Position numbers and translations under genes: made by a program
Part shown: one piece after another, positions 34,335 through 51,726 of the stretch
How the letters are laid out: each line of letters opens with the position of its first letter
How positions within the stretch are numbered: the first letter of the stretch is position 1
NCBI GenBank assembly: GCA_900168235.1
Contig: FUZG01000018.1
Span: 1-52,230, forward strand
Direction of reading: 5' to 3'
DNA from: Lachnospiraceae bacterium
Lineage (GTDB): Bacteria > Bacillota > Clostridia > Lachnospirales > Lachnospiraceae
Length of the DNA: 52,230 nucleotides
The notes under the pieces: generated by a model
What the model saw: the letters and a program-made list of their open reading frames with translations, nothing else
The model's database searches: none
Told to the model about the DNA's origin: nothing

Positions 34335-35234
34335 TTATTTTCTGAGATTACCTGTTTTCTTTGCCTCAGCCAAAAGCTCTTTTACGTCATCCACGCTGAA
34401 AGTATATGCTTTTCCGCAGAATTCGCATCTGATCTCAACAGGTTCGCCTTCTTCGATAAGCTTATTTAACTCTGCTTCACCGATACTGATAAGAACTCTT
34501 GATACCTTTTCTACACCGCAGTCACACTTAAATTCTACAGGCATGGGATCAAATATCTTCGGTTCAAGTCCGTCGAGTACAAGGCGGATGATATCCTCAG
34601 GCTTATTTCCTTCTTTTAAGAGATCTGTTACTGAGTGGATCTTTGCCACATTTTTTTCAACCGCAGAGATTGACTCTTCTGATGCACCTGGAAGCATCTG
34701 AACGATAAATCCGCCTGCCTCACGGACTGTATTGTCATGGTTCATTAGTACACCAAGTCCTACCGCTGACGGAACCTGCTCACTGGATGCAAAGTAATAG
34801 GTAAGGTCTTCTGCGATCTCACCGTTTACGAGAGCCGTCTGTCCGATATATGGATCTTTTAATCCAAGATCTTTTATTATCTGAAGTGTTCCGTGTCCGA
34901 CTGCTTTACCTACATCAAGCTTATGGTCTGATTCACGTATCGGTACGATAACCTCCGGCTCAAGAGCAAAGCCTTTTACATGACCGCGGGCATCTGCTGT
35001 TACTGTAAGTCCTTTTACCGGACCGTCACCACGGATCTGAAGTGTGATCATATCATCACCTTTCAGCATTGCGCCCATCATTGCTCCGCCTGTCAGGAGT
35101 CTTCCCAGCGCCGCAGAGATCACCGGACTTGTGTTATGAGCCTTTCTTGCTTCTTCTACTGTATTTCTTGTTGTAGCCGCAAAAATACGGACATCGCCGT
35201 TTTTTGACATTGCTCTTACCATATAATCGTTCAT
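34335..35234 (-). CDS. hslO: Redox-regulated chaperone Hsp33
   Basis: Holdase chaperone activated by oxidative unfolding. 299 residues. The C-terminal redox switch is present: CDCGVEKV (CxC) and CEFCGK (CxxC), which bind zinc when reduced. The N-terminal domain has GRLLTGGAMMGAMLKGDD, TLQIRGDGPV and MLPGASEE. The start at 35234 (MNDYMVRAMSKNGDV) has GAGGT about 8 bases upstream. Longer frames run into the promoter. First gene of a possible hslO-nadE-addB-addA-CPBP run. Confidence 0.95.
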   Translation of the reverse strand: MNDYMVRAMSKNGDVRIFAATTRNTVEEARKAHNTSPVISAALGRLLTGGAMMGAMLKGDDMITLQIRGDGPVKGLTVTADARGHVKGFALEPEVIVPIRESDHKLDVGKAVGHGTLQIIKDLGLKDPYIGQTALVNGEIAEDLTYYFASSEQVPSAVGLGVLMNHDNTVREAGGFIVQMLPGASEESISAVEKNVAKIHSVTDLLKEGNKPEDIIRLVLDGLEPKIFDPMPVEFKCDCGVEKVSRVLISIGEAELNKLIEEGEPVEIRCEFCGKAYTFSVDDVKELLAEAKKTGNLRK

Positions 35235-35261
35235 AATAATACCTCGCAATTCTAAAAACAG

Positions 35262-35290
35262 ATTATATAAAATCTTATTTCTTTTTGCAA
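35262..35290 (-). promoter_or_regulatory. hslO promoter
   Basis: Minus strand TTGCAA (35290-35285), 17 bases, perfect TATAAT (35267-35262), about 28 bases before the hslO start. Confidence 0.75.
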
Positions 35291-35377
35291 TTTGTGCTGT
35301 TACCGCTACCATTCATTCGCTTACAGCCCGCTCACATAACGGCTTTTGAAATAAAGTGAATTTTTTCAAAATTCATA

Positions 35378-35406
35378 TTGACATCGAGTTTTTTTGTGTC
35401 TATAAT
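35378..35406 (+). promoter_or_regulatory. Consensus promoter of the tRNA-Arg pair
   Basis: Perfect TTGACA (35378-35383), 17 bases, perfect TATAAT (35401-35406), 37 bases before the first tRNA-Arg. The strongest promoter in the window by match to consensus. Confidence 0.92.
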
Positions 35407-35442
35407 ACATCATGTTGCGTCGCAAGACACAATGCATAACAT

Positions 35443-35516
35443 GCGTGCGTAGCTCAGCTGGATAGAGCGTCTGGCTACGGACCAGAAGGTCGTGGGTTCG
35501 AATCCTGTCGCACGCA
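35443..35516 (+). tRNA. tRNA-Arg (anticodon ACG), copy 1
   Basis: 74 bases. Acceptor GCGTGCG / CGCACGC, D-arm GCTC...GAGC, anticodon stem TCTGG / CCAGA with loop CTACGGA (ACG), T-loop TTCGAAT, discriminator A. CCA is not encoded. Confidence 0.96.
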
Positions 35517-35562
35517 TATTTTATGTTTATCTTGATGCGTCGCAAAACAAAATATTTAACAT

Positions 35563-35636
35563 GCGTGCGTAGCTCAGCTGGATAGAGCGTCTGGCTACGG
35601 ACCAGAAGGTCGTGGGTTCGAATCCTGTCGCACGCA
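35563..35636 (+). tRNA. tRNA-Arg (anticodon ACG), copy 2
   Basis: Identical in sequence to the copy 120 bases upstream. The spacer also repeats part of the copy-1 leader (TGCGTCGCAA...TAACAT before each gene). Tandem duplication under one promoter. Confidence 0.96.
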
Positions 35637-35646
35637 TAATATTTAA

Positions 35647-35676
35647 GGAGATTGGCTTTCGCCAATCTCCTTTTTT
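35647..35676 (+). terminator. Terminator of the tRNA-Arg pair
   Basis: GGAGATTGGC / GCCAATCTCC perfect 10-bp stem with TTTC loop and six T. Confidence 0.95.
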
Positions 35677-35678
35677 GC

Positions 35679-35856
35679 ATGGCTCGCACTAAACTCGACA
35701 ATACCTCGTTAAGTGCCACAACCGCCTGCTCACTATGCTCGATAATACCTCGTTAAGTGCTCGCAACCGCCTGCTCACTATGCTCGATAATACCTCGCTG
35801 AGTGTGCAGGCATGGCTCGCACTATACTCGACAATACCTCGTTAAGTGCTCGCAAC
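35679..35856. repeat. Four tandem copies of a ~45-bp repeat
   Basis: Units at 35679-35722, 35723-35767, 35768-35811 and 35812-35856. All share a core CTCGAyAATACCTCGytrAGTG, and units 1/4 and 2/3 are the closest pairs. Each unit is an imperfect palindrome (GCACT...AGTGC). The last unit contains the final four codons and stop of the GNAT gene (V-A-S-T-stop). There are no spacers, so it is not CRISPR. Confidence 0.88.
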
Positions 35857-36681
35857 AACTTCTGCCCAGGCGGGGATGAAGCCTGCCCGTATTGCTACGT
35901 CCATCGAAAGGGAATGGCTCTCACTTGTTCCGTAGAATGGAAGCTTTCCAAATGTCAGTACCCTTGACGCGATCTTTTCTGTGAGGTAGGTTGCGAGTCC
36001 CATGCCTTCGTATTCGGGGTCAATATCCACGCCTATCTGCCACAAGTACTTTCCGTCTTCTGATGCACCTGTCATTGCAACGAGCTTTCCTTTATCCACC
36101 GCTGCCACTGCAATCCTGTCAGGCTGGGTTTCTGAATAGACAAGTGAATGAGGGAACAGTCCGTCCTTTCCCTCACCACGATGTTCTATCCTGAATTCTG
36201 CTATCTCTTTATCATAAAACCATATGAGTTTCAGATCCGTTCCCTCTATTTCATCCTGGTCATCATCTCCAAAGATTTCTGAAGCTTCCTGCCTGCTTGT
36301 AGGAATCTCCTTTATATCATCTTTTTTTACTGTTGAAAAAATTTTCTCATCAGGAAGAAAATAAACATGGGTATCTGCAATTTTATGTCCATGCTTTTTC
36401 AGTTCCTCATCAAGCATCCGGAGATTTTCAAATTTACAGAACCACTCCGGTTTCGCCTTTTCATATTTTTCCCTGATCCAGGGCAGGATCTCAGGATCTG
36501 CCATTATATATGCATCACCTTTATAAAAAACTCCCATGAAAAAAGTCGAAAGACCTGCATATCTTCTGGCTCCCGGAAGTTCCTTTCTTTCATTTATCAT
36601 GATCCTGTAAAGTTCCTCTGTCTCCGGGCTGCAATTCGTATCCAGCCTGAATTGGGAACGGGCAATTTCATCAAAGTTCAT
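35842..36681 (-). CDS. GNAT-family N-acetyltransferase
   Basis: 279 residues. The C-terminal third is a GNAT domain, with the acetyl-CoA-binding segment in DPEYEGMGLATYLTEKI near residue 225 and SMDVAIRAGFIPAW near the end. The N-terminal half is a separate α/β region without a recognised family. The substrate is unknown. GAAGGA precedes the ATG. It starts 48 bases after the Ldh2 gene, so it may be the last member of the transporter/dehydrogenase operon. Its last codons and stop lie in a tandem repeat, so the C-terminus (VVAST) may be a recent replacement. Confidence 0.8.
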   Translation of the reverse strand: MNFDEIARSQFRLDTNCSPETEELYRIMINERKELPGARRYAGLSTFFMGVFYKGDAYIMADPEILPWIREKYEKAKPEWFCKFENLRMLDEELKKHGHKIADTHVYFLPDEKIFSTVKKDDIKEIPTSRQEASEIFGDDDQDEIEGTDLKLIWFYDKEIAEFRIEHRGEGKDGLFPHSLVYSETQPDRIAVAAVDKGKLVAMTGASEDGKYLWQIGVDIDPEYEGMGLATYLTEKIASRVLTFGKLPFYGTSESHSLSMDVAIRAGFIPAWAEVVAST

Positions 36682-36729
36682 TTTTTTGTCCTTCTATATT
36701 GTTATAACGGGTTCAGACTCCACTATAAC

Positions 36730-37827
36730 CTATAAGGATACACTTTGACAAAGGATATCTTCATCTGCCATGTTTATTCCCAATTCTTTAATTATCTGAC
36801 CAATCTCACTCATGGTCTTATTGCTGATCGGTATACCTGTCCGTTTTCTTTCTTCAGCTTTCAAAAATTCCTTTTCGCCTGGTACAAAAATATGATCCTG
36901 CCCCTTCGCTTTCTTTGCACTATGAATCTCATCGATCATTTCTGACATTCTTTGTTTTACACCATCAGGATCACCAAATAATGCAGGATCTATCGCATAG
37001 AAGCAATGACTTGTATCACCTTTGTCTGTCTTATGCTTTGATGCCGCTCCGCCGGAAAGAACACTGGTCATTATCTCACAGATCATAGAGAAACCATATC
37101 CCTTGTATCCGGACTGTTCCTCACCGTCACCACCGACGGGAAGTATTCCGCCGCCCCGTTTTTCACCTATACACTCAAGTATCCTTATCGGATCATAGGA
37201 TACACTTCCTTCTTCATCGACAGCCCATTCACTCGGAAGTTTCTTTTCGAGCTTTTTATATAGTTCGATCTTCCCTCTTGTGACTACAGTCGTTGCTCCG
37301 TCAAACAGGAACGGATCATCGCCATCCGAAGGAACTGCTACAGCGATCGGGTTTGATCCCAGAACTGCCTCTGCCGAAAAGGTTGGAACCATTATCGCTA
37401 CGGTATTTGTCATGCTTATGCCGATCAGACCTTCCCTCGCAGCCATAAGAGCATAGTAGCCCGCTATCCCATAATGATTTGAATTTCTGACCTGGACAAG
37501 ACCTATACCGTGGACTTTCGCCTTTCGTATTGCTTCATCCATGGCACTGACCGATACTATCTGCCCCATTGCAGACTCTGCGTCTATCACGGAGGATATA
37601 GGAGTTTCAAATACAGTCTTCGGTACGGCATATTTATTTACAATATTCTCTTTTAATAAATTGTAATATTTCATTATCCTGGAAATACCGTGAGATTCCA
37701 CTCCGAAAAGATCCGCCGTTAAAAGCACATCCGTGATCTGTCTGCTGTCAGCATCCGAAAAACCAAGTGCTTTGAAGATCCTTTTTCCAAGATCCATATA
37801 CTGTGCAGTTGTTATTTTCGTATACAT
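36730..37827 (-). CDS. Ldh2/malate-(sulfo)lactate dehydrogenase-family oxidoreductase
   Basis: 365 residues of the Ldh_2 (malate/L-lactate/sulfolactate/ureidoglycolate dehydrogenase) family, which uses NAD(P)H and has a fold unlike classical lactate dehydrogenase. Seen: LFGVESHGISR near residue 50, the catalytic-His motif VRNSNHYGIAGYY near 115, GSNPIAVAVPS near 160, and SGYKGYGFSMICEIM near 240. Substrates in the family are 2-hydroxy/2-oxo acids including 3-sulfolactate/sulfopyruvate. Which one applies here cannot be read from sequence. Nine bases after the ABC ATPase gene. Confidence 0.88.
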   Translation of the reverse strand: MYTKITTAQYMDLGKRIFKALGFSDADSRQITDVLLTADLFGVESHGISRIMKYYNLLKENIVNKYAVPKTVFETPISSVIDAESAMGQIVSVSAMDEAIRKAKVHGIGLVQVRNSNHYGIAGYYALMAAREGLIGISMTNTVAIMVPTFSAEAVLGSNPIAVAVPSDGDDPFLFDGATTVVTRGKIELYKKLEKKLPSEWAVDEEGSVSYDPIRILECIGEKRGGGILPVGGDGEEQSGYKGYGFSMICEIMTSVLSGGAASKHKTDKGDTSHCFYAIDPALFGDPDGVKQRMSEMIDEIHSAKKAKGQDHIFVPGEKEFLKAEERKRTGIPISNKTMSEIGQIIKELGINMADEDILCQSVSL

Positions 37828-37835
37828 ATTTTCCT

Positions 37836-38627
37836 TTATATCGCGTAGTCCTCCTGTGCAGAAACCTCTCCAAAAAATTCCTTATATACTTTCAACCGTA
37901 TCTGTTCAAAATCATAACTGGTCCTGCTTCTGGGTTCCGGCAGTTCCACATTTATTATTTTCTTTATCACTCCCGGTTTTGCAGACATGATTATGATTTT
38001 ATTTCCCATATATATTGCTTCATCAATATCATGAGTTACCAGAACTGTCGTCATGCGTTCTTCCTTCCAGATCCGCACAACTTCTTCCTGAAGATTCATC
38101 TTTGTAAACGCATCAAGTGCACCAAAAGGTTCATCCAAAAGAAGTATATGAGGACGATTTATCAAGGTCCTTGCAATAGCGACTCGTTTCTGCATTCCTC
38201 CTGAAAGCTGTTTTGGAAGCGCTTTTCCAAAACCTGAAAGACCTACCATATCCATGTATTTACGTACAAGCTCTTTTTTAGTCTTTTTAGGTGTGCTTTC
38301 CGGTAATCCAAATGCTATATTTTTTTCAGTATTATCCCACGGAAACAATCTTGATTCCTGAAACAAAACACCTACATCAACAGACGGCTTCTGAACCTGT
38401 TTACCGTTGATCAGGATCTCCCCTTCATTCGGAACATCAAGACCTGCTATCAGACGAAGCAGGGTACTCTTTCCGCACCCGCTCCCTCCGATGATGCTCA
38501 CGATATCTCCGGATTCGATCTCAAGATTTATGTCTTTCAGCACAACAAGCGGCTCTTTATCTATCTTAAATTCTTTTTTTACATGTCGAACAGAAATACT
38601 TTCGCCCTTTATTTCCTTGTCATTCAT
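37836..38627 (-). CDS. ABC transporter ATPase, SsuB/TauB (nitrate/sulfonate/taurine) family
   Basis: 263 residues. Walker A GGSGCGKST (47-55), Q-loop VGVLFQESRLFPW, signature LSGGMQKRVAIART, Walker B HILLLDEPFGALD, and H-loop VLVTHDIDEAIYMG. These are the residues and spacing of SsuB/TauB/NrtD-type subunits. It should power the permease and lipoprotein encoded in the same operon. GAGGTGG precedes the ATG. Between the two dehydrogenase genes, 9 bases from each neighbour. Confidence 0.93.
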   Translation of the reverse strand: MNDKEIKGESISVRHVKKEFKIDKEPLVVLKDINLEIESGDIVSIIGGSGCGKSTLLRLIAGLDVPNEGEILINGKQVQKPSVDVGVLFQESRLFPWDNTEKNIAFGLPESTPKKTKKELVRKYMDMVGLSGFGKALPKQLSGGMQKRVAIARTLINRPHILLLDEPFGALDAFTKMNLQEEVVRIWKEERMTTVLVTHDIDEAIYMGNKIIIMSAKPGVIKKIINVELPEPRSRTSYDFEQIRLKVYKEFFGEVSAQEDYAI

Positions 38628-38636
38628 CGAGCCACC

Positions 38637-39722
38637 TCATTTTACATCTCTTACCGATCTTATCCGTCTGCACGCTTCATGAATAGCTTCTTCAATATCC
38701 CTGTCTGAATATGCAAAACCATTTTCCGCAACAACAGGCCATTCATCCATCAATATTTCCGATAGTCTGAGGATCATCCGGTCAGGATCCGTACTTTCCC
38801 AATCTTCCGGTGTTTCAACCAGACCATATAAGAGCAGTTCGTCTATATATTTATTAATATAGTCGTCGTCCTTACCTTTCAGGATAAACTGGACCAACAA
38901 TCCAAATGCAACCTTTTCCCCGTGGAGCATATGTCTGCTTTCAGCGATCCTCGTCGAAGCAAAATAATATGGATGCGCAAATCCTCTTTTGGGTTTTCCG
39001 TCTGAAAAGCTTCCGCTTGCGCCCGCCAGATAAAAAATCGCATCCACAACTTTCTTGAACAGATCATCTTCAGTTTTTCCAAAATATGAATCCGTTCCCA
39101 ACTCTTTCAACAGATCAAAAGCAACTTTTGCTGTTGCAACATTTTGCAGCAAAGTGAGATCGCTTCCAAATTTTTCGATCAGGGGCTCAAACTCATACCA
39201 TTTTGCGAATGTATCCATGATACCGGATGCCAGATATCTTTTTGGTGCCTCCTTCAGCACCTGTGTGTCAGACAATATCAGCACCGGACTTTTTTTATTC
39301 CAATGAACAAGATCAAAATTCCCGTCATTTTTATAAAGGATCGATCTTGATGCCCAGCACGCACATGTCGCTGCGATCGTAGGTATGATAACTACAGGAA
39401 TATTTCTCAGGTCTCCTACCGCTTTTGCAGCATCGCAGATCTTTCCTCCTCCAATTCCAATTACAAGATCCGACTGCATCTCATCGGAAAATGACGCATA
39501 TTTTTGTATCTTATCGTAGACAGGATACCCTTCCATGATCATAAGTTCCGAAATAACATTCCACTCTTCCAGACTTTTTTCAAGCTCCTTTTCGACTTTT
39601 GACCATGCAGTTTTCCCGGCTATGATAAGCGCCTTTTTCCCATATACAGAAATATATTTTCCTGCCTCTGCAAGAATCCCGTATTCATTAATATATGTTT
39701 CCGGTGCTTTTATTGTAAGCAT
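38637..39722 (-). CDS. Metal-dependent alcohol dehydrogenase, glycerol dehydrogenase (GldA)-like
   Basis: 361 residues of the iron/zinc-dependent dehydroquinate synthase-like dehydrogenase family, nearest in layout to GldA. Seen: the NAD-binding VIGIGGGKICDAAKAVG (87-103), VIIPTIAATCACWASRS, and metal ligands expected at D170 (ASGIMDTFAKW), H250 (RGFAHPYYF) and H267 (MLHGEKVAFG). The enzyme oxidises an alcohol or reduces an aldehyde/ketone of a small polar compound. It is not next to a glycerol pathway but inside a sulfonate-type transporter operon, so a substrate such as a C3 sulfonate alcohol or another polar alcohol is possible (inference). Confidence 0.88.
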   Translation of the reverse strand: MLTIKAPETYINEYGILAEAGKYISVYGKKALIIAGKTAWSKVEKELEKSLEEWNVISELMIMEGYPVYDKIQKYASFSDEMQSDLVIGIGGGKICDAAKAVGDLRNIPVVIIPTIAATCACWASRSILYKNDGNFDLVHWNKKSPVLILSDTQVLKEAPKRYLASGIMDTFAKWYEFEPLIEKFGSDLTLLQNVATAKVAFDLLKELGTDSYFGKTEDDLFKKVVDAIFYLAGASGSFSDGKPKRGFAHPYYFASTRIAESRHMLHGEKVAFGLLVQFILKGKDDDYINKYIDELLLYGLVETPEDWESTDPDRMILRLSEILMDEWPVVAENGFAYSDRDIEEAIHEACRRIRSVRDVK

Positions 39723-39736
39723 ACGTTTATTTTCCT

Positions 39737-40504
39737 TTATTCATTCCAATACACTATCTTCTTTTCGAGTATATTTGTCACGAGATCTATCAACAGACCT
39801 ACCATTCCTATTACGACAACCCCTACAAACATAAGAGCCGGCTGGGATAATTCTCTCGCATATTGAATGAGATAACCTACTCCCATACTTGCCGCTATCA
39901 TTTCCGCTGTAACCACGCAGGACCAGGCTCTGCTTATAGACTGTCTTAATCCTGTAAATATCCCCGGCACGGCAGATGGCAGTATTATCTTAAAGATCAC
40001 TGTGAATCTGTTCTTTTCCAATGTTCTTCCAAGTTCCAGCAATTCATTATCCGTACTTTTTACGCCGTTTATCGTGTCTAAAAGCATCGGCCAGAAACTT
40101 CCGATCGCTATAACAGTAACCTTAGAACCTTCACCTATTCCAAGTGCCAGTATCAATAACGGTATCCAGGCAATGGGCGGTATAGGTCTGAGTATTCCTA
40201 TGAAGAGATCAAAAACGACCGCCATTTTTTCACTCAGACCTATAAAAAGCCCCAGTATCAATCCAAGTCCTGCCCCTATTAATACTCCCTTAAATACCCT
40301 GCCAAGGCTTGCCATTAAATGGAAAAAAATTGTCCTGTCACTTAGCATCAGCAAAAATTTGCCGAAAATTTTTGTCGGCTTCGACATTATCGTCGGATTG
40401 ATCATGTGCTCAGCACTCGCATATTCCCACAACACAAACAAAGCGACAAGTATCACCCACGATAATATACGAAGCCCTGTATATTTCTTTCCTTTCTTTT
40501 CCAT
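39737..40504 (-). CDS. ABC transporter permease, SsuC/TauC family
   Basis: 255 residues, about six membrane segments. The EAA-type cytoplasmic loop is ELLELGRTLEKNRFTVIFKIILPSAVPGIFTGLR near residue 150, and the family motif RPIPPIAWIPLLILALGIGEGSK lies near 105. It pairs with the SsuB/TauB-like ATPase. The start at 40504 (MEKKGKKYTGL) has AAGGAG 6 bases upstream. A longer frame 14 codons earlier lacks one. Confidence 0.92.
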   Translation of the reverse strand: MEKKGKKYTGLRILSWVILVALFVLWEYASAEHMINPTIMSKPTKIFGKFLLMLSDRTIFFHLMASLGRVFKGVLIGAGLGLILGLFIGLSEKMAVVFDLFIGILRPIPPIAWIPLLILALGIGEGSKVTVIAIGSFWPMLLDTINGVKSTDNELLELGRTLEKNRFTVIFKIILPSAVPGIFTGLRQSISRAWSCVVTAEMIAASMGVGYLIQYARELSQPALMFVGVVVIGMVGLLIDLVTNILEKKIVYWNE

Positions 40505-40556
40505 TACAGACTCCTTCAACACCCATATATGCAAAAATATGCACACGAAAGAATTT

Positions 40557-41777
40557 TTATCTCAGGGGCAAAACTGCATCTTTTTCAAGATACGGAACAT
40601 CAAATGAAAGTGTATCCGGATACTTTATCCCTGCGCCTGTATTTAAGAGGACCACGCTTTCTCCTTCTTTGATCCAATTATCTTTCCTGAGTTCCTTTGC
40701 CGCAGCATAGATAGCAGCTCCCTCCGGGCACACGAAGGTTCCTTCTGTCTGAGCCAGTTCCTTTAGCGCGCTCAGAATCTTCTCATCATCAACTGCGATC
40801 GCACAGCCATCTGTTTTATAGATAGCTTCCAGTACCAAAAAGTCTCCCAACGCCTTTGGTACGTTTATTCCAAATGCAACTGTTTTTGAATCTTCAAAAA
40901 ATTCAGACTCATTTTTCCGTTCATTGTAAGCCTTTACGATCGGAGAACATCCCTCTGCCTGAACGGCTACAAGCCGCGGAAGCTTCCCTTCAATAAAACC
41001 TAATTCTTTTAACTCCGTCAGCGCCTTATAGATTCCAACGATGCCGACTCCTCCTCCTGTCGGGTACAGAATCACATCGGGTGTTTTCCACCCAAACTGT
41101 TCCGCGATCTCAAGACCCATTGTCTTTTTTCCTTCAATTCGATATGGTTCCTTTAGTGTAGATGCGTCGAACCACCCATTCTCCTTAACTGACCTCGCTA
41201 CGATCTTTCCGCAGTCACTTATCAACCCCTTTACTAGATAAAGATCTGCGCCTGCTGCAGCACATTCATTTCTGGTAATTGAAGGAGCATCCTCCGGCAT
41301 GATGATAACTGCTTTTAATCCTGCCCTCGCGCTGTAGATCGACCATGCAGCACCTGCATTTCCGTTAGTCGGCATCGAAAGTACTTTTACGCCCAGTTCT
41401 TTTGCTCTTGATACACCAACAGCAGCCCCTCTCGCCTTAAATGTTCCGGTCGGGATAACTCCTTCATCCTTTATAAATAATTTGGAAATACCACTCTTTT
41501 CCCCTGCTTTCTTTAAGGGGATTACAGGTGTAAATCCCTCCCCAAGACTCACGATATTTTCGTCATCCTGTACCGGAAGAAGTTCTCTGTATCTCCAGAG
41601 ACTCTTTTCACGTCCCTTTAGGCTCTCCTTATTAAACTGCTTTGCTGCCTCTTTTAAGTCATAACTTACAAGAAGTGGTGATCCACACTCACAAAGCTGA
41701 TGGATCTCATTAATTTCGTACTCTCTTCCGCATTTAGGGCATCGCAGATTCTTTGCGAAGCTGTTTATCTTTGACAT
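40557..41777 (-). CDS. Threonine-synthase-like PLP enzyme with N-terminal zinc ribbon
   Basis: 406 residues, fold-type II pyridoxal-phosphate enzyme in the threonine synthase group (COG0498-type). N-terminal zinc ribbon C13, C16, C29, C31. PLP lysine K114 in TGTFKARG. Phosphate-binding glycines lie in YPTGGGVGIVG near residue 245. True threonine synthases usually have FKDRG and TGN-T/S, whereas this protein has FKARG and TNGNAGAAW, so another β-replacement or elimination reaction is likely. Archaeal cysteate synthase comes from this same group, which is notable next to a sulfonate-type transporter. The start at 41777 has GAAGGAG about 11 bases upstream. Substrate unknown. Confidence 0.82.
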   Translation of the reverse strand: MSKINSFAKNLRCPKCGREYEINEIHQLCECGSPLLVSYDLKEAAKQFNKESLKGREKSLWRYRELLPVQDDENIVSLGEGFTPVIPLKKAGEKSGISKLFIKDEGVIPTGTFKARGAAVGVSRAKELGVKVLSMPTNGNAGAAWSIYSARAGLKAVIIMPEDAPSITRNECAAAGADLYLVKGLISDCGKIVARSVKENGWFDASTLKEPYRIEGKKTMGLEIAEQFGWKTPDVILYPTGGGVGIVGIYKALTELKELGFIEGKLPRLVAVQAEGCSPIVKAYNERKNESEFFEDSKTVAFGINVPKALGDFLVLEAIYKTDGCAIAVDDEKILSALKELAQTEGTFVCPEGAAIYAAAKELRKDNWIKEGESVVLLNTGAGIKYPDTLSFDVPYLEKDAVLPLR

Positions 41778-41814
41778 GGCGGTTAATGCTCCTTCTTTCA
41801 ATAACTAAATACTT

Positions 41815-42876
41815 TTACTCTGTAACTCCTGAATTTTCGTAATAACTTGTATCAACAATGTCTTCGATCGTAAGCGTATCCTCGATAGTACCCTGAGACT
41901 TCAGGAAATCAAGAGTTCTCTGAATAGGAGCAACAAACTTATCCTCATCTATACTGATCGAACGGGTTCTTGACTCGAAACTTACTTTAGCGACCTCCTT
42001 ATCTGTTCCTGTAAGCTTTACAAAAGTATCTACAGTTTCTTCAGGATTTTCATCGATCCACTGCTTTGTTTTCTCTAAAACCTTAAGAACGCCTGTCACA
42101 ACTTCCGGATGCTCTTTTACAAACTCCTCACGACCGATCAGAAGATTTTCTATGATACCTGATTCACTATTATCTGCAACGATCACAGCGCCCGCATCGT
42201 TTGCTGCATTTAACTGATCGCCCTTTAAGATAGCACCGTCTACATCTCCTGATATCAGTGAGTTAAGGCTGTCTTCTGCTGACAGATTCACGATCTCCAC
42301 ATCTGTATCAGAAAGACCTGCATTGGCTATAAGTGTAAGAAGCATCTCGTGCTCGTTAGATGAGAACTTTACACCGATCTTCTTCCCCTTAAACTGATCT
42401 ACTGATGTGATTCCTGTTCCGGCTCCGGCATAGAGCTTAAATCCATCTTCAGAAAGATTTACGCTTGAGATAGCAACAAAATGGCTGTCATTAGCATCTG
42501 CAGTTACAAGAGGCATCGTTCCGAGAACTCCTAGATCAACATCACCTGCATTCATTGCTTCAACGATCGCAGAACCCTGATTTACAAAATTATCTACAAC
42601 GATCTTGATACCTGTATCCTTGAATTCCTCATCAAAATATCCGTTTTCTTCAGCTACCTTCAGGATAAAAAATGAAGGCTGATCACCAATGTGAACCTCC
42701 AACTCATCCTTGCTTTCAGCAGATGCCTGTGCTGTTTCAGAAGATTCAGCCACTGAAGCGCTTTCTGAAGCACTTTCTGCTGCACTTACATTTGTTTCCT
42801 TTGCCGAACCGCATCCTGCAAGCATAGACACAGCAAGAGCAGACACCATCACCAGATTGATCAATTTCTTTTTCAT
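41815..42876 (-). CDS. ABC transporter substrate-binding lipoprotein, SsuA/TauA family
   Basis: 353 residues. Lipoprotein signal MKKKLINLVMVSALAVSMLAGC with the lipobox Cys at 22, a Ser/Ala/Glu-rich linker to about residue 60, then a two-lobed NMT1/SsuA-like domain (GVLGTMPLVTADANDSHFVAI, GKKIGVKFSSNEHEMLL, SLISGDVDGAILKGDQ, EEFVKEHPEVVTGVLKVLEKTKQWIDENPEE). The family binds sulfonates, taurine, nitrate or the thiamine precursor HMP. The ligand is not evident. The start at 42876 has GAGAGG upstream. A TTG five codons earlier is inside that site. First gene of the operon, which favours high expression. Confidence 0.93.
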   Translation of the reverse strand: MKKKLINLVMVSALAVSMLAGCGSAKETNVSAAESASESASVAESSETAQASAESKDELEVHIGDQPSFFILKVAEENGYFDEEFKDTGIKIVVDNFVNQGSAIVEAMNAGDVDLGVLGTMPLVTADANDSHFVAISSVNLSEDGFKLYAGAGTGITSVDQFKGKKIGVKFSSNEHEMLLTLIANAGLSDTDVEIVNLSAEDSLNSLISGDVDGAILKGDQLNAANDAGAVIVADNSESGIIENLLIGREEFVKEHPEVVTGVLKVLEKTKQWIDENPEETVDTFVKLTGTDKEVAKVSFESRTRSISIDEDKFVAPIQRTLDFLKSQGTIEDTLTIEDIVDTSYYENSGVTE

Positions 42877-42919
42877 AATTTTTCCTCTCAAAAAGTATAG
42901 TTTTTGAAACTAATAATCA

Positions 42920-43039
42920 GAAACACGCATTTACTGCGTGTTTCGTATGAAAGTTTTTACTGCGCAGAAATGGGCAATTTTTAAATGCGAAGCATTGCCC
43001 ATTTCATGGCTTTTGGAATGTCTGCATTTCAAAAGTCAT
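42920..43039. repeat. Three-hairpin structured leader of the SsuA-like operon
   Basis: Hairpin 1: GAAACACGCA / TGCGTGTTTC, 42920-42944. Hairpin 2: GAAATGGGCAAT / ATTGCCCATTTC, 42967-43005, with a nested ATGC-GAA-GCAT. Hairpin 3: 15-bp stem 43006-43020 / 43025-43039 with two G·T positions. Hairpins 2 and 3 abut. None is followed by a T-run on the minus strand. Either a regulatory RNA leader or a palindromic intergenic repeat. The two G·T pairs favour the plus-strand transcript, which speaks somewhat for the repeat-element reading. Confidence 0.65.
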
Positions 43040-43065
43040 ATGTTTTATTCACTCCGTTATCTGTA

Positions 43066-43110
43066 TCAACAACGAATCAATCCTCCTGCTGCGCTTGATA
43101 AAAATCCCAT
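43066..43110 (-). CDS. Putative 14-residue leader peptide (MGFLSSAAGGLIRC)
   Basis: An ATG at 43110 is preceded by GAGGTG with a 6-base spacing, as good as any ribosome binding site nearby. The frame reads MGFLSSAAGGLIRC and stops with TGA. The only Cys codon is immediately before the stop. It lies about 55 bases after a good promoter and 26 bases before the hairpin series, upstream of the SsuA-like lipoprotein gene. This is the architecture of a translated attenuator. The coding claim rests on the ribosome binding site and position only. Confidence 0.45.
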   Translation of the reverse strand: MGFLSSAAGGLIRC

Positions 43111-43172
43111 GACCGACACCTCATTTTTGTACTATCCATACTTTCTCTATCTGCTTAATAGGTTTTGTCGAC

Positions 43173-43200
43173 ATTTTATCACTATATGCCGCATTGTCAA
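43173..43200 (-). promoter_or_regulatory. Promoter of the SsuA-like/dehydrogenase operon
   Basis: Minus strand perfect TTGACA (43200-43195), 16 bases, TAAAAT (43178-43173). It gives a leader of about 290 bases before the lipoprotein gene. Confidence 0.68.
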
Positions 43201-43265
43201 CAAATCCGGTCATAGTCATTTTTTATTACGTGTTATCGATAAAATATATAACCAATTTTTTGCAC

Positions 43266-43295
43266 AGAAAAAGCGGTCCGTTTTCACGGACCGCC
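43266..43295 (-). terminator. Terminator of the sugar ABC operon
   Basis: GCGGTCCG / CGGACCGC 8-bp stem, six-base loop, then TTTTTCTG on the minus strand, 63 bases past the last permease gene. Confidence 0.9.
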
Positions 43296-43357
43296 TTTCA
43301 GCACAGTTTCTAATTTTGTATGCTCACGGAAAGCAGAGGACTTTCCATGTATTGATC

Positions 43358-44380
43358 TTACTTACTTCTCTCCTTGATCAGTGCGAAGATACTCTGCAGG
43401 ATGATGAAGAAGCAGAGAAGTGCTGCTGTTGCAATGTTTGCCCAGCTAGAGAGGAGTTTACCGTTTGTAGTAACAAGCTGTGTGATAGTACCGTTGATGA
43501 GCACTCCTACGAAGGAACCGATAACGTTACCTACACCACCTGTAAGAAGCGTACCACCGATAACGGCAGATGCGATAGCATCCATCTCAAATCCACGCGC
43601 CTGCTGTACGGAACCTGACATTGTGTTCAGGCAGTACAGAACACCACCGATGGAGCAAAGGAATGAAGAAAGGATGTAAGCAAACATCTTTGTCTTCTTT
43701 ACGTTAAGCCCCATCATTGTAGCGGATGTCTCGTTACCACCTACAGCGTAAAGGACACGGCCGAACTTTGTGTACTTCAGCATGCAGAATACTACAACAA
43801 GTACGAGAAGAGCAACAACAACTGAAGGACGAATAAACGGTGCGATCATCTTTCCCTTCTTGTTCATGTAGCCAAGGAATGCAGGAAGGTTGATCTTTGC
43901 ATTTGCCCATCCATAGAAAAGAGGGTTGATGTCCTGTGTGATAGAAATCTGGCTTGTGTTGATAACCGCTGTCATACCACGTCCAAAGAACATACCTGCC
44001 ATGGATACGATGAAGGGCTGGATATCAAAGTAACTTACCAGTACACCCTGAACTGTACCAAATACAAGACCGATAACGAGTACCAGGATTACTAACGGAA
44101 CTGCACCCATGTGCTTATTTGACATACCGTCTGCAAGGATCATGCAGTCCATAGCGATCAGGGAACCAACTGAAATATCGATACCGCCTGTAAGCATTAC
44201 GCATGTCATACCGCAGGCAACACAGATAAGACCTGCATTAGTAATGAGAATGTTCAAAAATGTCTGTAAATGTGTGAAACCTTTATCTGCGTAAATTGCG
44301 CATCCAACACCGTACATTACAACGAAAAGTACAAATGTGATAAGCAGCAGAATATTATTTCCGTTTAATTTCTTAGCCAT
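43358..44380 (-). CDS. yjfF: Sugar ABC transporter permease, YjfF-like
   Basis: 340 residues, 8-10 membrane segments, ribose/galactofuranose (RbsC/YjfF) type. Seen: TCVMLTGGIDISVGSLIAM near residue 62, the PFIVSMAGMFFGRGMT segment, VGGNETSATMMGLNVKKTK (the EAA-like loop that contacts the ATPase) and GFEMDAIASAVIGGTLLTGGVGNVIGS near 275. One of two unequal permeases in the operon, as in E. coli YtfT/YjfF. The start overlaps the previous stop by one base (TAATG). Confidence 0.88.
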   Translation of the reverse strand: MAKKLNGNNILLLITFVLFVVMYGVGCAIYADKGFTHLQTFLNILITNAGLICVACGMTCVMLTGGIDISVGSLIAMDCMILADGMSNKHMGAVPLVILVLVIGLVFGTVQGVLVSYFDIQPFIVSMAGMFFGRGMTAVINTSQISITQDINPLFYGWANAKINLPAFLGYMNKKGKMIAPFIRPSVVVALLVLVVVFCMLKYTKFGRVLYAVGGNETSATMMGLNVKKTKMFAYILSSFLCSIGGVLYCLNTMSGSVQQARGFEMDAIASAVIGGTLLTGGVGNVIGSFVGVLINGTITQLVTTNGKLLSSWANIATAALLCFFIILQSIFALIKERSK

Positions 44381-45435
44381 TATGCTGCTACCTCCTTGCC
44401 TGCAGATACTTTCTTTGCCTTATGAGCTGCAAACCACTCCTTGAAGATAGGAGACTGGATCACAACGATAAGTACAACGATGATAGCCTTTACAACCGGT
44501 GCCTGGTCTGTGGAAACACCCATAGCCAGAAGGGTTGTTGTGATAGCCTGAATTGTGTAAGCACCGATGATGGAACCTGCAAGGTTGAACTTACCACCAC
44601 CAAGGCTGTTACCGCCAAGAGCTACAGAGAGGATAGCATCCATCTCGTAGTTAAGACCGATATTAGCAGAGTCAGCAGAGTAGATTCTGGAAGAAGCTAC
44701 GATACCTGCGATACCTGCGCAGATGCCGCATACAAGATAGCAGCTCCAGCAGATTACTGTGGAATTGATACCTGCGATACGTGCTGCACGGCTGTTGATA
44801 CCAACTGCCTGGATAAATGTGCCCATTGCTGTGTTCTTTAAGAACAGAGCTACGATAACGATAACTGCGATAGCTGCAAAGATCGGTGTCGGAAGCGGGC
44901 ATCCCGGAATGAAGTTACCGAGATAAGAGTAAGGCTTATATCTTACATAAACGATCATGTTTGCGTTTACGAGAAGTCCGATAGCACGGGCAGCCGTAAA
45001 CAGGATAAGTGTAGCGACCATAGGCTGAATCTTGAGCTTCGCTACAAGGAATCCGTTAAATCCACCGCAGATTGCTCCGAGAAGTACACCAAAGAGCATA
45101 CCTACGATCATCGGGTACTTCAGAACTGTTACTGAAGTTACTCCGTAACCTGCAAGCAGTGAACAGCATCCGCATGCAGAAAGTGCCATAACTGATCCAA
45201 CAGAGATATCTGTTCCTGCTGAAACAGCGACAACCAGTGTCATTCCAACTGCCAGGATTGCAATTTCTGAACCACGGTTCAGAACGTCGATCAGACGGCC
45301 GGAAATAATTCCGTTATTGATACCGATAGCAAAGAATCCGGCATCCTTAAAAAGGTTGATCAGAAGCACGAGCACCATGCTTACGATAGGCAGGAATAAT
45401 GGGCTTTTTCTGATCTTCTCCCACTTTTCTTTCAT
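44380..45435 (-). CDS. ytfT: Sugar ABC transporter permease, YtfT-like
   Basis: 351 residues, 8-10 membrane segments. Seen: GMTLVVAVSAGTDISVGSVMAL near residue 62, LKIQPMVATLILFTAARAIG, VGINSRAARIAGINST (ATPase-contact loop) and NYEMDAILSVALGGNSLGGGKFNLAGS near 270. It forms the heteromeric channel with the YjfF-like protein. The start overlaps the ATPase stop by 4 bases (ATGA). Confidence 0.88.
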   Translation of the reverse strand: MKEKWEKIRKSPLFLPIVSMVLVLLINLFKDAGFFAIGINNGIISGRLIDVLNRGSEIAILAVGMTLVVAVSAGTDISVGSVMALSACGCCSLLAGYGVTSVTVLKYPMIVGMLFGVLLGAICGGFNGFLVAKLKIQPMVATLILFTAARAIGLLVNANMIVYVRYKPYSYLGNFIPGCPLPTPIFAAIAVIVIVALFLKNTAMGTFIQAVGINSRAARIAGINSTVICWSCYLVCGICAGIAGIVASSRIYSADSANIGLNYEMDAILSVALGGNSLGGGKFNLAGSIIGAYTIQAITTTLLAMGVSTDQAPVVKAIIVVLIVVIQSPIFKEWFAAHKAKKVSAGKEVAA

Positions 45436-46958
45436 TTCTTTTCACCTCCAGCTATTGCATTCATGATGACGCCCTGAGTCAGCTCAGTCTCAGAACTTGT
45501 GAGCTCTCCTACCTTCTTACCGTCACGCATGATAAGCATTCTTGTACAGGTACGGATCATCTCATCCAGCTCAGAGGAAATGAAGATTACGCTCATTCCC
45601 TTCTTTGCAAGCTCAATGACTTTCTTCTGGATCTCAGTCTTGGTACCGATATCGATACCACGTGTAGGCTCATCAAGGATAAGCAGCTTAGGATCTGTTG
45701 CCAGCCAGCGGCCAAGGATAACCTTCTGCTGGTTACCACCGGAGAGCTGTCCTAAGAGTGTTTCTCTGGAAGCTGTCTTTACGTTCAGTTCCTTGATATA
45801 TTTATCAGCGATTTCAATCTGCTTCGCCATAGGAATCTTCTTGAAAAGGCCGTATCTTGCCTGAAGGGCAATGATTATATTCTCTCTTACGGAAAGACCT
45901 GCGATACATCCGTCTGCCTTACGGTCATCCGGAAGGTAAGCCATACCAGCCTTGATAGAATCAAGCGGTGTCTTTATCTTCAGTTCTTTTCCATCTATAG
46001 ACTCTGTACCGGTCTGAGCAATATCTGCTCCATAGAGGCAGCGAACAAGTTCGCTTCGTCCACTTCCCAGAAGACCTGCAAGTCCAACAACTTCACCCTT
46101 TTCGATCTCGAAATCAAACGGATGAATTGTTCCCTTATGGCTAAGTCCCTTTGCCTTAAGAAGTGTCTCTGCCTTACCCGGCTCGATCTCTGACTTCTCA
46201 ATAGCAGCCAGATCATCGACATCCTTACCGAGCATAGCTGCAACCAGCTTTACTCTCGGAAGTTCTTCAATCTTATATTCTCCAACAAATGTACCGTTTC
46301 TCATAACTGTGATACGATCACAGACCTCATATACCTGCTCCAGGAAATGAGTTACGAAGATGATACCAACTCCCTTAGCCTTAAGCTGACGCATAAGCTT
46401 AAAGAGCTTCTCAACTTCCTTATCATCAAGTGAAGATGTAGGCTCATCAAGAATAAGTGCCTTACACTCCATATCCACTGCTCTTGCAATGGCGATCATC
46501 TGCTGAATGGCGATGGAATAATTTTCCAGACTCTGGGTAACATCCACCTGAATATCCAGGTCATCCATAAGTTTCTGAGCCTGTTTATTCATCTTACGCC
46601 AGTCTATCGTTCTGATTGCTGTTCGCGGCTCACGTCCGATGAACAGATTCTCTGCAACGCTGAGATTAGGACAGAGATTTACCTCCTGATAAACTGTAGC
46701 TATACCGATATTCTGTGCATCCATGGTATTTCTGTTAAAGACATTTCCTTCAACACCTTCCATGTGAACTTCACCGCTGTCCCGATGATACACACCGGTC
46801 AGACACTTAATGATGGTCGATTTGCCGGCACCGTTCTCTCCCATGAGCGCGTGGATTTCGCCCTTTCTAAGTGTCAGCTGTGCATGATCCAGCGCAACGA
46901 CACCTGGGAATGTCTTAACGATGTCCCGCATTGTAATCAGAACATTTTCTTCCGCCAT
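45432..46958 (-). CDS. ytfR: Sugar ABC transporter ATPase with two nucleotide-binding domains, YtfR/MglA-like
   Basis: 508 residues. Domain 1 has Walker A GENGAGKST near residue 39, a signature reading NYSIAIQQMIAIARA and Walker B ALILDEPTSSLD. Domain 2 has a degenerate Walker A (GLLGSGRSELVRCL), signature LSGGNQQKVILGRW and LLILDEPTRGIDIG. This is normal for the RbsA/MglA family. It powers the YtfT/YjfF-like permeases. Separated from the binding-protein gene by a hairpin, which probably lowers its expression relative to it. Confidence 0.93.
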   Translation of the reverse strand: MAEENVLITMRDIVKTFPGVVALDHAQLTLRKGEIHALMGENGAGKSTIIKCLTGVYHRDSGEVHMEGVEGNVFNRNTMDAQNIGIATVYQEVNLCPNLSVAENLFIGREPRTAIRTIDWRKMNKQAQKLMDDLDIQVDVTQSLENYSIAIQQMIAIARAVDMECKALILDEPTSSLDDKEVEKLFKLMRQLKAKGVGIIFVTHFLEQVYEVCDRITVMRNGTFVGEYKIEELPRVKLVAAMLGKDVDDLAAIEKSEIEPGKAETLLKAKGLSHKGTIHPFDFEIEKGEVVGLAGLLGSGRSELVRCLYGADIAQTGTESIDGKELKIKTPLDSIKAGMAYLPDDRKADGCIAGLSVRENIIIALQARYGLFKKIPMAKQIEIADKYIKELNVKTASRETLLGQLSGGNQQKVILGRWLATDPKLLILDEPTRGIDIGTKTEIQKKVIELAKKGMSVIFISSELDEMIRTCTRMLIMRDGKKVGELTSSETELTQGVIMNAIAGGEKK

Positions 46959-47000
46959 TGTTTTTCTCCCTTAATTAACCAAAAGTTACTGCGATTTTTT

Positions 47001-47034
47001 AAAAATGGGGCGACCCCTTACCGGAGGCCGCCCC
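47001..47034 (-). terminator. Partial terminator between binding protein and ATPase genes
   Basis: GGGGCG / CGCCCC stem enclosing a further GC-rich loop, followed by ATTTTTAAAAAA on the minus strand. In a 140-base gap within the operon. Probably read through in part, so the binding protein is made in excess. Confidence 0.7.
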
Positions 47035-47098
47035 TCAAAACTGCCTATACCAGCATTTTGAAACAAAGATTAAAACTTAAACCGTTTGTCACTGTGAA

Positions 47099-48253
47099 TT
47101 AGTATGCAGCGTCAACGATCTCCTGAGTTACAGGGATAAGATCCTCAGTAACTTCCTCACCGCTTGCATTTGTGTATGTGATGGACTTCAGATCAGACTC
47201 AGCAACATACCAAGGCTCAGCCATGAATGTTTCCTTCTGAACTTCCTCGCCTGCCTGCAGAGACTGAACGATCTTTGCGCAGTCCGGACCGGAAAGAGGG
47301 TTGCACTGGAAGTCAGCGTTGATCTTTCCTTCAAGTACCTGCTGAAGACCTGCAGTACATGCATCGAAGGAGATAAGGATTACATCACCGTCAACACCGT
47401 AGGATACACCAGCTGCATCCATAGCCTGCTGAGCACCAAATGCCTCGTTATCGTTCTGGCAAACTACAACGTTGAACTTGCCGTTGTAAGACTTGCAGTA
47501 AGACTCCATAACTTCCTGGCCGCCTTCCTGTGTGAAGTCACCAGTCTGCTCATCAAGCTTGTTCCAGCCTTCAGAATCAACATACTGATCAAATCCCTCA
47601 GAACGTCCAAGCTGTGCAGAAGCACCTGTTGTACCGGAGATTACAAGGATGTTAAGCTCCTCGATGCCCTTAGCTGCTGCGTAATCCTTAAGCCAAGCAC
47701 CTGCTGCGATACCCTCGTTCTTGAACTGGGAACCAACCCATGCAGTGTACTTATCGGAGTCATCGATTGTACGGTCGATTACGATTACCGGAATACCAGC
47801 GTCCTCACACTCCTGAAGAACTGTATCCCAACCTGTTGATACGATCGGGTCGATTACGATGTAATCAACATCCTGCTGAATGAAGTTACGTACTGCCTCA
47901 AGCTGAGCTGCGGAATCGTTATCGCAGTCTACGAACTGAAGGTCGAAGCCGTTCTCTGCTGAGAAAGCATCCTGTACAGACTTTGTAGCTGCTGTACGCC
48001 AGTCAGACTCGTGACCAACCTGTGCGAAACCAACGGAGATTGTCTCACCTGATGCTGCATCAGCGCCTGCCTCAGAAGCGATCTCAGATGCTGCCTCCTC
48101 AGCGGATGCAACTGTCTCTGCTGCCTGAGAAGCTGCCTCAGATGCTGCCTCAGAAGAAGCTGCTGCCGGAGCCGGTGCGCTTCCGCCGCAACCTGCGAGC
48201 ATTGTTGCTGCCATTGCTGTGCTTAAGAGTACGCTAACTACTTTACGTTTCAT
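47099..48253 (-). CDS. ytfQ: Sugar ABC transporter binding lipoprotein, YtfQ-like
   Basis: 384 residues. Lipobox LAGC with Cys22, a long Ala/Ser/Glu-rich linker (about 25-70), then a periplasmic-binding-protein type I domain. The opening GFAQVGHESDWRTAATKSV and IDPIVSTGWDTVLQECEDAGIPVIVIDR match the YtfQ group, which binds furanose forms of sugars such as galactofuranose and arabinofuranose. Given the AraR-like regulator and sites nearby, L-arabinose(-furanose) or a related pentose is the likely ligand. A GGGAGG ribosome binding site precedes the ATG. Confidence 0.9.
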   Translation of the reverse strand: MKRKVVSVLLSTAMAATMLAGCGGSAPAPAAASSEAASEAASQAAETVASAEEAASEIASEAGADAASGETISVGFAQVGHESDWRTAATKSVQDAFSAENGFDLQFVDCDNDSAAQLEAVRNFIQQDVDYIVIDPIVSTGWDTVLQECEDAGIPVIVIDRTIDDSDKYTAWVGSQFKNEGIAAGAWLKDYAAAKGIEELNILVISGTTGASAQLGRSEGFDQYVDSEGWNKLDEQTGDFTQEGGQEVMESYCKSYNGKFNVVVCQNDNEAFGAQQAMDAAGVSYGVDGDVILISFDACTAGLQQVLEGKINADFQCNPLSGPDCAKIVQSLQAGEEVQKETFMAEPWYVAESDLKSITYTNASGEEVTEDLIPVTQEIVDAAY

Positions 48254-48286
48254 TGTGTTAATCCTCCCTTACATAAATAAGTATGT

Positions 48287-48321
48287 TTTGTATTTACAAA
48301 CGTGTATTTACACGGTTTGTA
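48287..48321. promoter_or_regulatory. AraR-like operator cluster upstream of the YtfQ-like gene
   Basis: TTTGTA-TT-TACAAA (48287-48300) has the arms and spacing of the Bacillus AraR operator (ATTTGTACGTACAAAT). GTGTA-TT-TACAC (48302-48313) and a half-site TTTGTA (48316-48321) follow at once. I see no strong promoter in this 102-base gap, so the sites may act on a weak promoter or as a roadblock. Confidence 0.62.
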
Positions 48322-48355
48322 CTATGTTAATAACAACTATACAGTGGTCTTCTCC

Positions 48356-49948: not shown

Positions 49949-50003
49949 TTTGTGCTCCTTAATATTATTCAAACCGGATTACCGGTTTTTAACTTTATAT
50001 AGA

Positions 50004-51122: not shown

Positions 51123-51156
51123 GCTTCCTTCCCGATCTTTCCTAAAATCTCCTGAG

Positions 51157-51455: not shown

Positions 51456-51585
51456 CATACATGTACACATTTGTCCTTATAGTTTTATCACATGTATATT
51501 TGTAAACTTTACATATCAGCCTGGCTTACGCCTGATACGTTTCCTCATCGCTCGCAATCCGGATCTATATATAAAAATGCACGCA

Positions 51586-51622
51586 AAAAATCCCTTAGGA
51601 CATATCAACTGACCTAAGGGAT
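51586..51622 (-). terminator. Terminator after tRNA-CAU
   Basis: ATCCCTTAGG / CCTAAGGGAT perfect 10-bp stem followed by six T on the minus strand, nine bases past the tRNA. A weaker TATCAG/CTGATA hairpin lies further on at 51514-51537. Confidence 0.92.
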
Positions 51623-51630
51623 GATAAGAG

Positions 51631-51704: not shown

Positions 51705-51726
51705 GTATGTAATATTGTATTGTGAT

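Follow-up and report, generated by a model that had tools for sequence, protein, structure and literature searches.

A 52,230-nucleotide stretch of DNA from a Lachnospiraceae bacterium (contig FUZG01000018.1, assembly GCA_900168235.1), hereafter the window, carries on its minus strand, between positions 36730 and 42876, a six-gene operon that likely scavenges sulfur from a sulfonate or at least from an organosulfur compound. The operon encodes an SsuA/TauA-type binding lipoprotein with its permease and ATPase, a zinc-ribbon enzyme of the pyridoxal phosphate (PLP) type resembling threonine synthase (ThrC-like), and two unrelated dehydrogenases. Taken as a whole, it has in our view an even chance of being an oxygenase-free sulfur-scavenging operon for 3-sulfolactate (2-hydroxy-3-sulfopropanoate). 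This reading builds on the computed gene order and gene families, on the conservation of the operon in a second genome of the family (G195), and on the recurrent nearness of ThrC-like genes to sulfonate transport genes.

From these observations we infer the substrate, the stereochemistry, the transamination, the lyase reaction, and the fate of sulfite. 3-Sulfolactate would be imported by the SsuA-type lipoprotein, the permease, and the ATPase, and its opposite enantiomers would be oxidized to sulfopyruvate by the Ldh2-family enzyme and by the unrelated iron-containing alcohol dehydrogenase family (Fe-ADH) enzyme, which resembles HcxA. An aminotransferase, encoded just downstream of the operon in G195 and presumably a household one in the genome of the window, would convert sulfopyruvate to cysteate, from which the ThrC-like enzyme would beta-eliminate sulfite, leaving aminoacrylate to yield pyruvate and ammonium. 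The sulfite would be reduced by a sulfite reductase-like protein and its sulfur passed on to cysteine or homocysteine, probably via a ThiS-like carrier; in G195, surplus sulfite may exit through a YeiH-type exporter. Sulfolactate as the substrate seems to us an evenly balanced call, and we give about the same odds to a cysteate sulfo-lyase role for the ThrC-like enzyme.

Conservation of the operon and its surroundings in G195

The initial annotation had described six genes read in one direction with short gaps, and this description was confirmed: with ATG starts chosen, the gaps measure 37, 52, 14, 9, and 8 bases from the binding protein gene to the Ldh2 gene. In the 5'-to-3' direction, the encoded proteins belong to the Pfam families NMT1, PALP, BPD_transp_1, Fe-ADH, ABC_tran, and Ldh_2. 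The start at 41777 was preferred to the longer open reading frame (ORF) start at 41801 for the ThrC-like gene, as was 40504 to 40546 for the permease gene. No oxygenase, SuyAB-like gene, or aldehyde or histidinol-type dehydrogenase was found among the six genes.

The annotation had also held that the six genes form one system. Among the 396 other genomes of a family sample, the ThrC-like enzyme has a close relative in one, G195, which has all six genes in identical order (Ldh2, 65% identity; ATPase, 75%; Fe-ADH, 53%; permease, 68%; ThrC-like enzyme, 76%; binding protein, 71%). Since the order is repeated at 53 to 76% identity, the grouping is not a product of chance. Of the 397 genomes of the family sample, which includes the genome of the window, 20 have a ThrC-like match at an E value of 1e-60 or below, but G195 harbors the sole close relative, the others being 32 to 37% identical. 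In 36 further genomes from the genus, no match was better than an E value of 4e-16, compared to 2e-278 for the genome's own gene, and in a class sample of 391 genomes, partly overlapping the family sample, matches at 1e-130 or below were confined to the own genome and to G778 (58% identity). The operon is rare and patchy, a distribution that acquisition by transfer or frequent loss would be expected to produce; its G+C content of 42.2%, compared to 45 to 46% in the flanks, is weak evidence in the same direction.

Past the six genes, the same strand of G195 encodes a class I/II aminotransferase (PF00155), located where the window has an acetyltransferase gene, and then a YeiH-family protein scoring 169 bits, above the cut-off, with PF03601. 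Next come a small protein without a family, a MetY-like enzyme (PF01053), a ThiS-like protein of 73 amino acids, a ThiF/MoeB adenylyltransferase, a JAMM protease, and a NIR_SIR protein whose top NCBIfam match is sulfite reductase subunit C (150 bits, cut-off 324). A path from a sulfonate through sulfite to homocysteine is a plausible reading of this cluster. The genome of the window has a NIR_SIR gene above the Pfam cut-off at a place separate from the operon, beside ORFs named by eye as ThiS-, ThiF-, JAMM-, and TusA-like proteins, serine acetyltransferase, and cysteine desulfurase. A Sat-type ATP sulfurylase was not found in either genome; since both have a PAPS_reduct-family gene, we do not claim that sulfate is unusable.

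The importer

The binding lipoprotein (41815 to 42876, minus strand), 71% identical to its G195 counterpart, belongs to the SsuA family by TIGR01728 (171 bits, cut-off 163.5), in agreement with the SsuA/TauA type given by the initial annotation. It also scores 93 bits with NMT1 and 33 bits, above the cut-off of 27, with Phosphonate-bd. The seven best matches of its AlphaFold model (mean predicted local distance difference test [pLDDT] score, 80.8) among solved structures were chains of TauA (6ssy) and SsuA (2x26, 3ksx, and 3e4r), with TM-scores of 0.59 to 0.70 by query length and 20 to 24% identity. Binders of hydroxymethylpyrimidine (HMP), thiamine, nitrate, and bicarbonate ranked behind them. 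This weakens the nitrate-type and thiamine precursor ligands that the initial annotation had kept as alternatives, while the family fold leaves the ligand itself unfixed. The permease (39737 to 40504, minus strand; PF00528) is of the SsuC/TauC type, its best NCBIfam matches being SaoP, TauC, and SsuC, and the ATP-binding cassette (ABC) ATPase (37836 to 38627, minus strand; PF00005) is of the SsuB/TauB/NrtD type, with SaoA, ntrCD, and TauB as best matches, all of these matches being below their cut-offs. Organosulfur import is well supported.

The ThrC-like enzyme

The ThrC-like gene (40557 to 41777, minus strand) encodes a PALP protein (PF00291) of the PRK08197 family with four ribbon cysteines, C21, C24, C37, and C39 in the numbering of a 414-residue protein. 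It scores 658 bits with NF006050, a family named threonine synthase (cut-off 303), and the solved structures ranked 1 to 21 against its model (pLDDT, 90.8) are all threonine synthases. The first other match, at rank 22 and 20% identity, is CapA2 of Alistipes finegoldii (9k3c), which we take to be the cysteate synthase of sulfonolipid synthesis. A cysteate synthase is also part of the sulfonolipid pathway of Chryseobacterium, as described in the accessible part of PMC11211663.

A separate ThrC of about 500 residues, above the cut-off of TIGR00260, was found in all four genomes tested (the genome of the window, G195, G044, and G778), and the ThrC-like enzyme is therefore not the threonine synthase of the genome; we rejected the housekeeping identity on this basis. 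With TIGR00260, the ThrC-like protein itself scores 163.5 bits, just below the cut-off of 167.1, and its G778 relative 180.5 bits, above it. At the PLP-binding lysine, all 47 rows of the clade have FK[A/S]RG, whereas the three solved threonine synthases compared have FKDRG, a criterion for threonine synthase that we chose in this analysis. The more distant clade also lacks the D of FKDRG in 20 of its 21 rows, and the motif thus does not set the ThrC-like clade apart.

We also considered CuyA, presumably a member of the D-cysteine desulfhydrase-related group represented by TIGR01275. This group was not among the best 25 of the 40 NCBIfam families listed for the ThrC-like protein, and a search of the genome of the window and of G195 gave nothing above its cut-off, the one weak match in the former lying on another contig. 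The ThrC-like enzyme was therefore rejected as a CuyA orthologue. No paper linking a ThrC-like enzyme to cysteate cleavage was listed by our searches of the open-licence literature, and neither PMC5320631 nor PMC12172450 makes this link in the parts accessible to us.

The two dehydrogenases

The Ldh2-family enzyme (36730 to 37827, minus strand; PF02615, 381 bits) is the only PF02615 match in its genome at an E value of 0.001 or below. Its best NCBIfam model is L-sulfolactate dehydrogenase (NF040650), as in G195, and it would act on one enantiomer of sulfolactate. We assume that ComC is likewise an Ldh2-family enzyme.

The Fe-ADH family enzyme (38637 to 39722, minus strand; PF00465), proposed to act on the other enantiomer, had been labeled GldA-like, and this label required correction. 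It scores 196 bits with the glycerol dehydrogenase model (cut-off 336) and 125 bits with PRK10586 (NF007880; cut-off 429), the latter model presumably standing for HcxA. In an alignment to one hcxA sequence, it has PTIAATCA.W and GI.DT.AKWYE in common with Escherichia coli HcxA, annotated as hydroxycarboxylate dehydrogenase A, and we assigned it by these motifs. It also lacks STDAP, having AATCACW where the two glycerol dehydrogenases compared have ASTDAPT. Despite the higher score of the glycerol dehydrogenase model, the motifs suggest that the enzyme is better read as HcxA-like, and its identity as a plain glycerol dehydrogenase was rejected. Reading it as HcxA-like gives the operon two 2-hydroxyacid dehydrogenases, which argues for sulfolactate rather than 2,3-dihydroxypropane-1-sulfonate (DHPS). 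Five further genomes of the family (L167 to L171) have HcxA-like genes at 37 to 41% identity, next to a HisC-like aminotransferase in four of the five and SsuABC-like importers in three, or polar amino acid importers, all named by eye; these arrangements perhaps salvage 2-hydroxyacids to amino acids.

Genomic contexts of ThrC-like relatives

The ThrC-like clade occurs in several phyla under the annotation "threonine synthase." Our survey of its neighborhoods (8 kb) comprised 83 rows (80 loci plus L127, L128, and L139), of which L128 duplicates L002; the resulting 82 loci comprise 46 with at least 58% identity and 36 with less. An SsuC-type permease was present in 11 of the 46 closer loci (L127, L004, L009, L010, L012, L014, L021, L027, L030, L048, and L139), compared to none of the 36 distant ones, the SsuC- and binding protein-type matches of L027 being weak (28 to 33% identity). 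Fisher tests gave P values of 0.0018 and, without 12 Amycolatopsis loci, 0.00013, which are descriptive only since the queries were picked after some loci had been seen. The 12 Amycolatopsis loci belong to the closer group and have none of SsuC, RidA, HisM, TauD, and SsuD. RidA, the nearness of which fits aminoacrylate release, was found at 9 of the 46 closer and none of the 36 distant loci, HisM-type amino acid permeases at 8 and 3, respectively, and TauD and SsuD at 3 and 2 of the closer loci. The SsuC-type, TauD, and SsuD neighbors, together with the sulfite and sulfur assimilation genes of G195, support the sulfonate link that the initial annotation had drawn from family resemblance.

In a tree of 65 rows, all sulfonate, amino acid importer, and RidA rows fell into one 44-row set (support 100/100) and none into the other 21, with L043 wrongly labeled as an amino acid importer row (it has no such match) and L014 and L027, each with two contexts, counted as sulfonate only. 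The tree left out L128 as a duplicate, nine Amycolatopsis and three Aeromonas rows, and seven short or stop-crossing rows, including L004. Within the 44-row set, rows with the sulfonate context are dispersed (8 changes, a number reached or undercut in 96 of 500 shuffles), as though different importers had repeatedly been joined to a single function.

Several individual loci are informative about the substrate. In L004, from an uncultured Clostridiales bacterium, genes for the binding protein, ThrC-like enzyme, permease, and ATPase form a core; next come an Asp/Glu-type racemase and a MetY-like gene, and the surrounding 8 kb contain no match to Ldh2 or HcxA. In L007 (Desulfofundulus), the neighbors of the ThrC-like enzyme are a dicarboxylate symporter, RidA, and a racemase of the Asp/Glu type. 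A plasmid of Aliarcobacter cibarius, outside the survey, encodes a "threonine synthase" 64.6% identical to that of the window in a row formed by a sulfonate-binding protein, SsuD, a permease, an ATPase, an amidohydrolase, and the ThrC-like enzyme; the row goes on with a cysteine-type amino acid importer, a sulfate-binding protein, cysteine synthase, and an M67 peptidase, beyond which lie a transposase and a MoaD/ThiS protein. The racemases, dicarboxylate or amino acid importers, RidA, and the aminotransferase point to an aspartate-like amino acid with a beta leaving group, while the sulfonate-type importers, TauD, SsuD, and the YeiH-family and sulfite reductase-like genes of G195 point to a sulfonate. 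Cysteate would satisfy both demands, and the layouts of G195 and L004 are consistent with it.

Other unusual neighbors of ThrC-like genes were noted. The L139 locus of G778 combines, at positions 1174 to 12239, NifH-, NifE-, and NifK-type best matches (below cut-offs), an SsuABC-like importer, the ThrC-like gene, and a variant radical-SAM gene (NF045502), a stretch that resembles a nitrogenase-like sulfur acquisition island; a second NF045502 radical-SAM gene lies with a different importer at 15539 to 19571. An NF045502 variant radical-SAM protein is also encoded between the SsuC-type permease and ThrC-like genes of a Campylobacteraceae locus (L030, 3165 to 4385). Histidinol dehydrogenase-like and DegT-type aminotransferase genes recur near ThrC-like genes with RidA (L008, 8922 to 15354; L011; L017; L027, 2287 to 11200), and their recurrence could reflect oxidation of a cysteinolic acid-type amino alcohol to cysteate, or a DHPS dehydrogenase.

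Evaluation of the sulfolactate reading and its alternatives

A number of points weigh against the sulfolactate reading. No enzyme of the operon exceeds the curated cut-off of any sulfolactate or cysteate enzyme family, and we therefore do not file these enzymes under the CuyA, ComC, or cysteate synthase families but propose that they work like them. The initial annotation had linked Ldh2 to sulfolactate; the best model agrees, but the scores of 235 bits (window) and 248 bits (G195) fall short of the cut-off of 500, and among solved structures two entries named malate dehydrogenase outscore the sulfolactate dehydrogenase 2x06. The annotation's placement of the zinc-ribbon PLP enzyme in the threonine synthase group holds by NF006050 and the nearest solved folds, but the tie to cysteate synthase does not extend to TIGR03844 (83 bits, cut-off 324.9). 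The operon of the window has neither an aminotransferase nor a sulfite-handling gene. In G195, the YeiH-family protein is below the cut-off of TIGR00698, a putative sulfate exporter family (93 of 233 bits), the MetY-like enzyme is below that of TIGR01326 (418 of 495 bits), and a 288-base gap between the exporter and aminotransferase genes makes a single transcript uncertain. The surveyed loci are not independent, their queries were chosen with some loci in view, and an SsuC-type permease is missing from the 8-kb neighborhoods of 35 of the 46 closer loci, some of which are truncated by contig ends. The amino acid importers in 8 of the 46 leave room for a different amino acid as the substrate, the contexts of L167 to L171 suggest that the HcxA-like dehydrogenase could act on a sulfur-free 2-hydroxyacid, and a threonine synthase-like enzyme of Microcystis is reported, in the accessible part of PMC12172450, to be a threonine deaminase. 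On balance, the initial annotation is partly supported: the GldA label needed correction, but its general direction stands.

Import of another C3 sulfonate, either DHPS, with the Fe-ADH enzyme acting as a glycerol dehydrogenase on C2, or cysteate itself, with the dehydrogenases as side enzymes, appears unlikely. The higher score of the glycerol dehydrogenase model would suit it, although this score and that of the HcxA-type model are both below cut-off, as would L004, where a racemase takes the place of the dehydrogenases in the same sulfonate context; the HcxA motifs, the loss of STDAP, and the lack of an aldehyde or histidinol-type dehydrogenase in the operon argue otherwise, and cysteate import would require no 2-hydroxyacid dehydrogenase. 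We consider it quite unlikely that the ThrC-like enzyme cleaves or deaminates other amino acids (cysteine, cystine, S-substituted cysteines, serine, or threonine) and that the operon imports a 2-hydroxy analogue, for example mercaptolactate. The SsuA/TauA-type importer, the TauD and SsuD neighbors, and the YeiH-family and sulfite reductase-like genes of G195 suit sulfite better than sulfide or deamination, against which stand the HisM-type permeases, the cysteine-type importer of A. cibarius, the MetY-like neighbors in L004 and G195, and the Microcystis deaminase. Conversion of an imported sulfur-free 2-hydroxyacid, or of a phosphonate counterpart such as phosphonolactate, into pyruvate or an amino acid would be in line with the family-wide recurrence, judged by eye, of HcxA-like enzymes with aminotransferases and SsuABC-like importers and with the Phosphonate-bd score of the binding protein, which is well below its NMT1 score; given the sulfur genes of the G195 cluster and the sulfur contexts of ThrC-like relatives, we regard this as decidedly improbable. 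A second threonine synthase beside an unrelated importer, as the NF006050 name, the nearest solved folds, and the G778 relative above the TIGR00260 cut-off might suggest, is the most improbable of all, in view of the separate ThrC in four of four genomes, the operon context, and FK[A/S]RG in place of FKDRG.

Features flanking the operon

A promoter-like site (43173 to 43200, minus strand) upstream of the binding protein gene matches 11 of 12 positions and has TG ahead of the second hexamer, but such sites are not enriched in the scanned region (12 found, 15.9 expected from shuffles). A sugar-type ABC permease gene lies upstream of the operon on the same strand. A GNAT acetyltransferase gene (35842 to 36681, minus strand; PF00583), starting 48 bases past the Ldh2 gene, is a candidate operon member. 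An Rfam scan of positions 34500 to 52230 revealed no riboswitch, the matches at gathering thresholds being tRNAs and rRNA. Downstream of the operon and the GNAT gene are two tRNA-Arg(acg) genes (35442 to 35637), 120 bases apart, and a 117-residue ORF opposite them is probably spurious. At the edge of the window (51630 to 52230), tRNA-Asn, tRNA-Glu, and tRNA-Met genes lie beyond the 3' end of a large-subunit rRNA gene.

Relation to known systems

That the ThrC-like clade is a second, so far unrecognized family of cysteate sulfo-lyases and the operon an oxygenase-free sulfolactate-to-homocysteine route, in which Ldh2 and a nonorthologous HcxA-like enzyme replace SlcC/ComC, with a candidate cysteate aminotransferase in G195 and candidate racemases in L004 and L007, is a proposal that we advance tentatively, as somewhat less than an even chance. 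If true, a family now labeled threonine synthase would be a further, oxygen-independent desulfonating lyase, such bacteria would take sulfur from small sulfonates for biosynthesis and not for respiration, and the aminotransferase and racemases would be testable candidates for these steps.

According to the accessible part of PMC11382572, the sulfolyase routes for sulfolactate are SuyAB, Xsc, and CuyA, and the genes for the cysteate aminotransferase and racemase of Ruegeria pomeroyi are there called unknown. SlcC and ComC convert the two enantiomers of sulfolactate into each other through sulfopyruvate, and a branch with a cysteate lyase is described as well (PMC11382572 and PMC10507020, each as far as accessible). 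The CuyA branch of Ruegeria and Roseovarius (PMC11382572) has the same intermediates as those proposed here, and there too a PLP enzyme takes sulfite off cysteate, but in our proposal that enzyme is ThrC-like and is accompanied by an SsuABC-type importer. The slcC-comC-suyAB module of Taurinivorans muris, as presented in PMC10507020, likewise has two dehydrogenases for the two enantiomers, but the second one would here be an HcxA-like Fe-ADH enzyme, and the six genes include nothing SuyAB-like.

Cysteate synthases (TIGR03844; CapA2) have the same PLP fold, and the proposed lyase step would partly reverse their addition of sulfite, whereas the context here is catabolic and the similarity low (83 against 325 bits; 20% identity to CapA2). 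For Wolinella, Krishnamoorthy and Begley reportedly described in 2011 a homocysteine synthesis based on a protein thiocarboxylate, with a gene set of MetY, a ThiS-like carrier, ThiF, and JAMM. These genes stand together in G195 as well, but there, unlike in Wolinella, they adjoin a sulfonate import operon. The 2011 study is cited in the accessible part of PMC5764234. Finally, the importer is of the same type as in SsuABC and TauABC systems with SsuD or TauD; those systems use an oxygenase, whereas the six genes of the window include none and desulfonation by a lyase is proposed.

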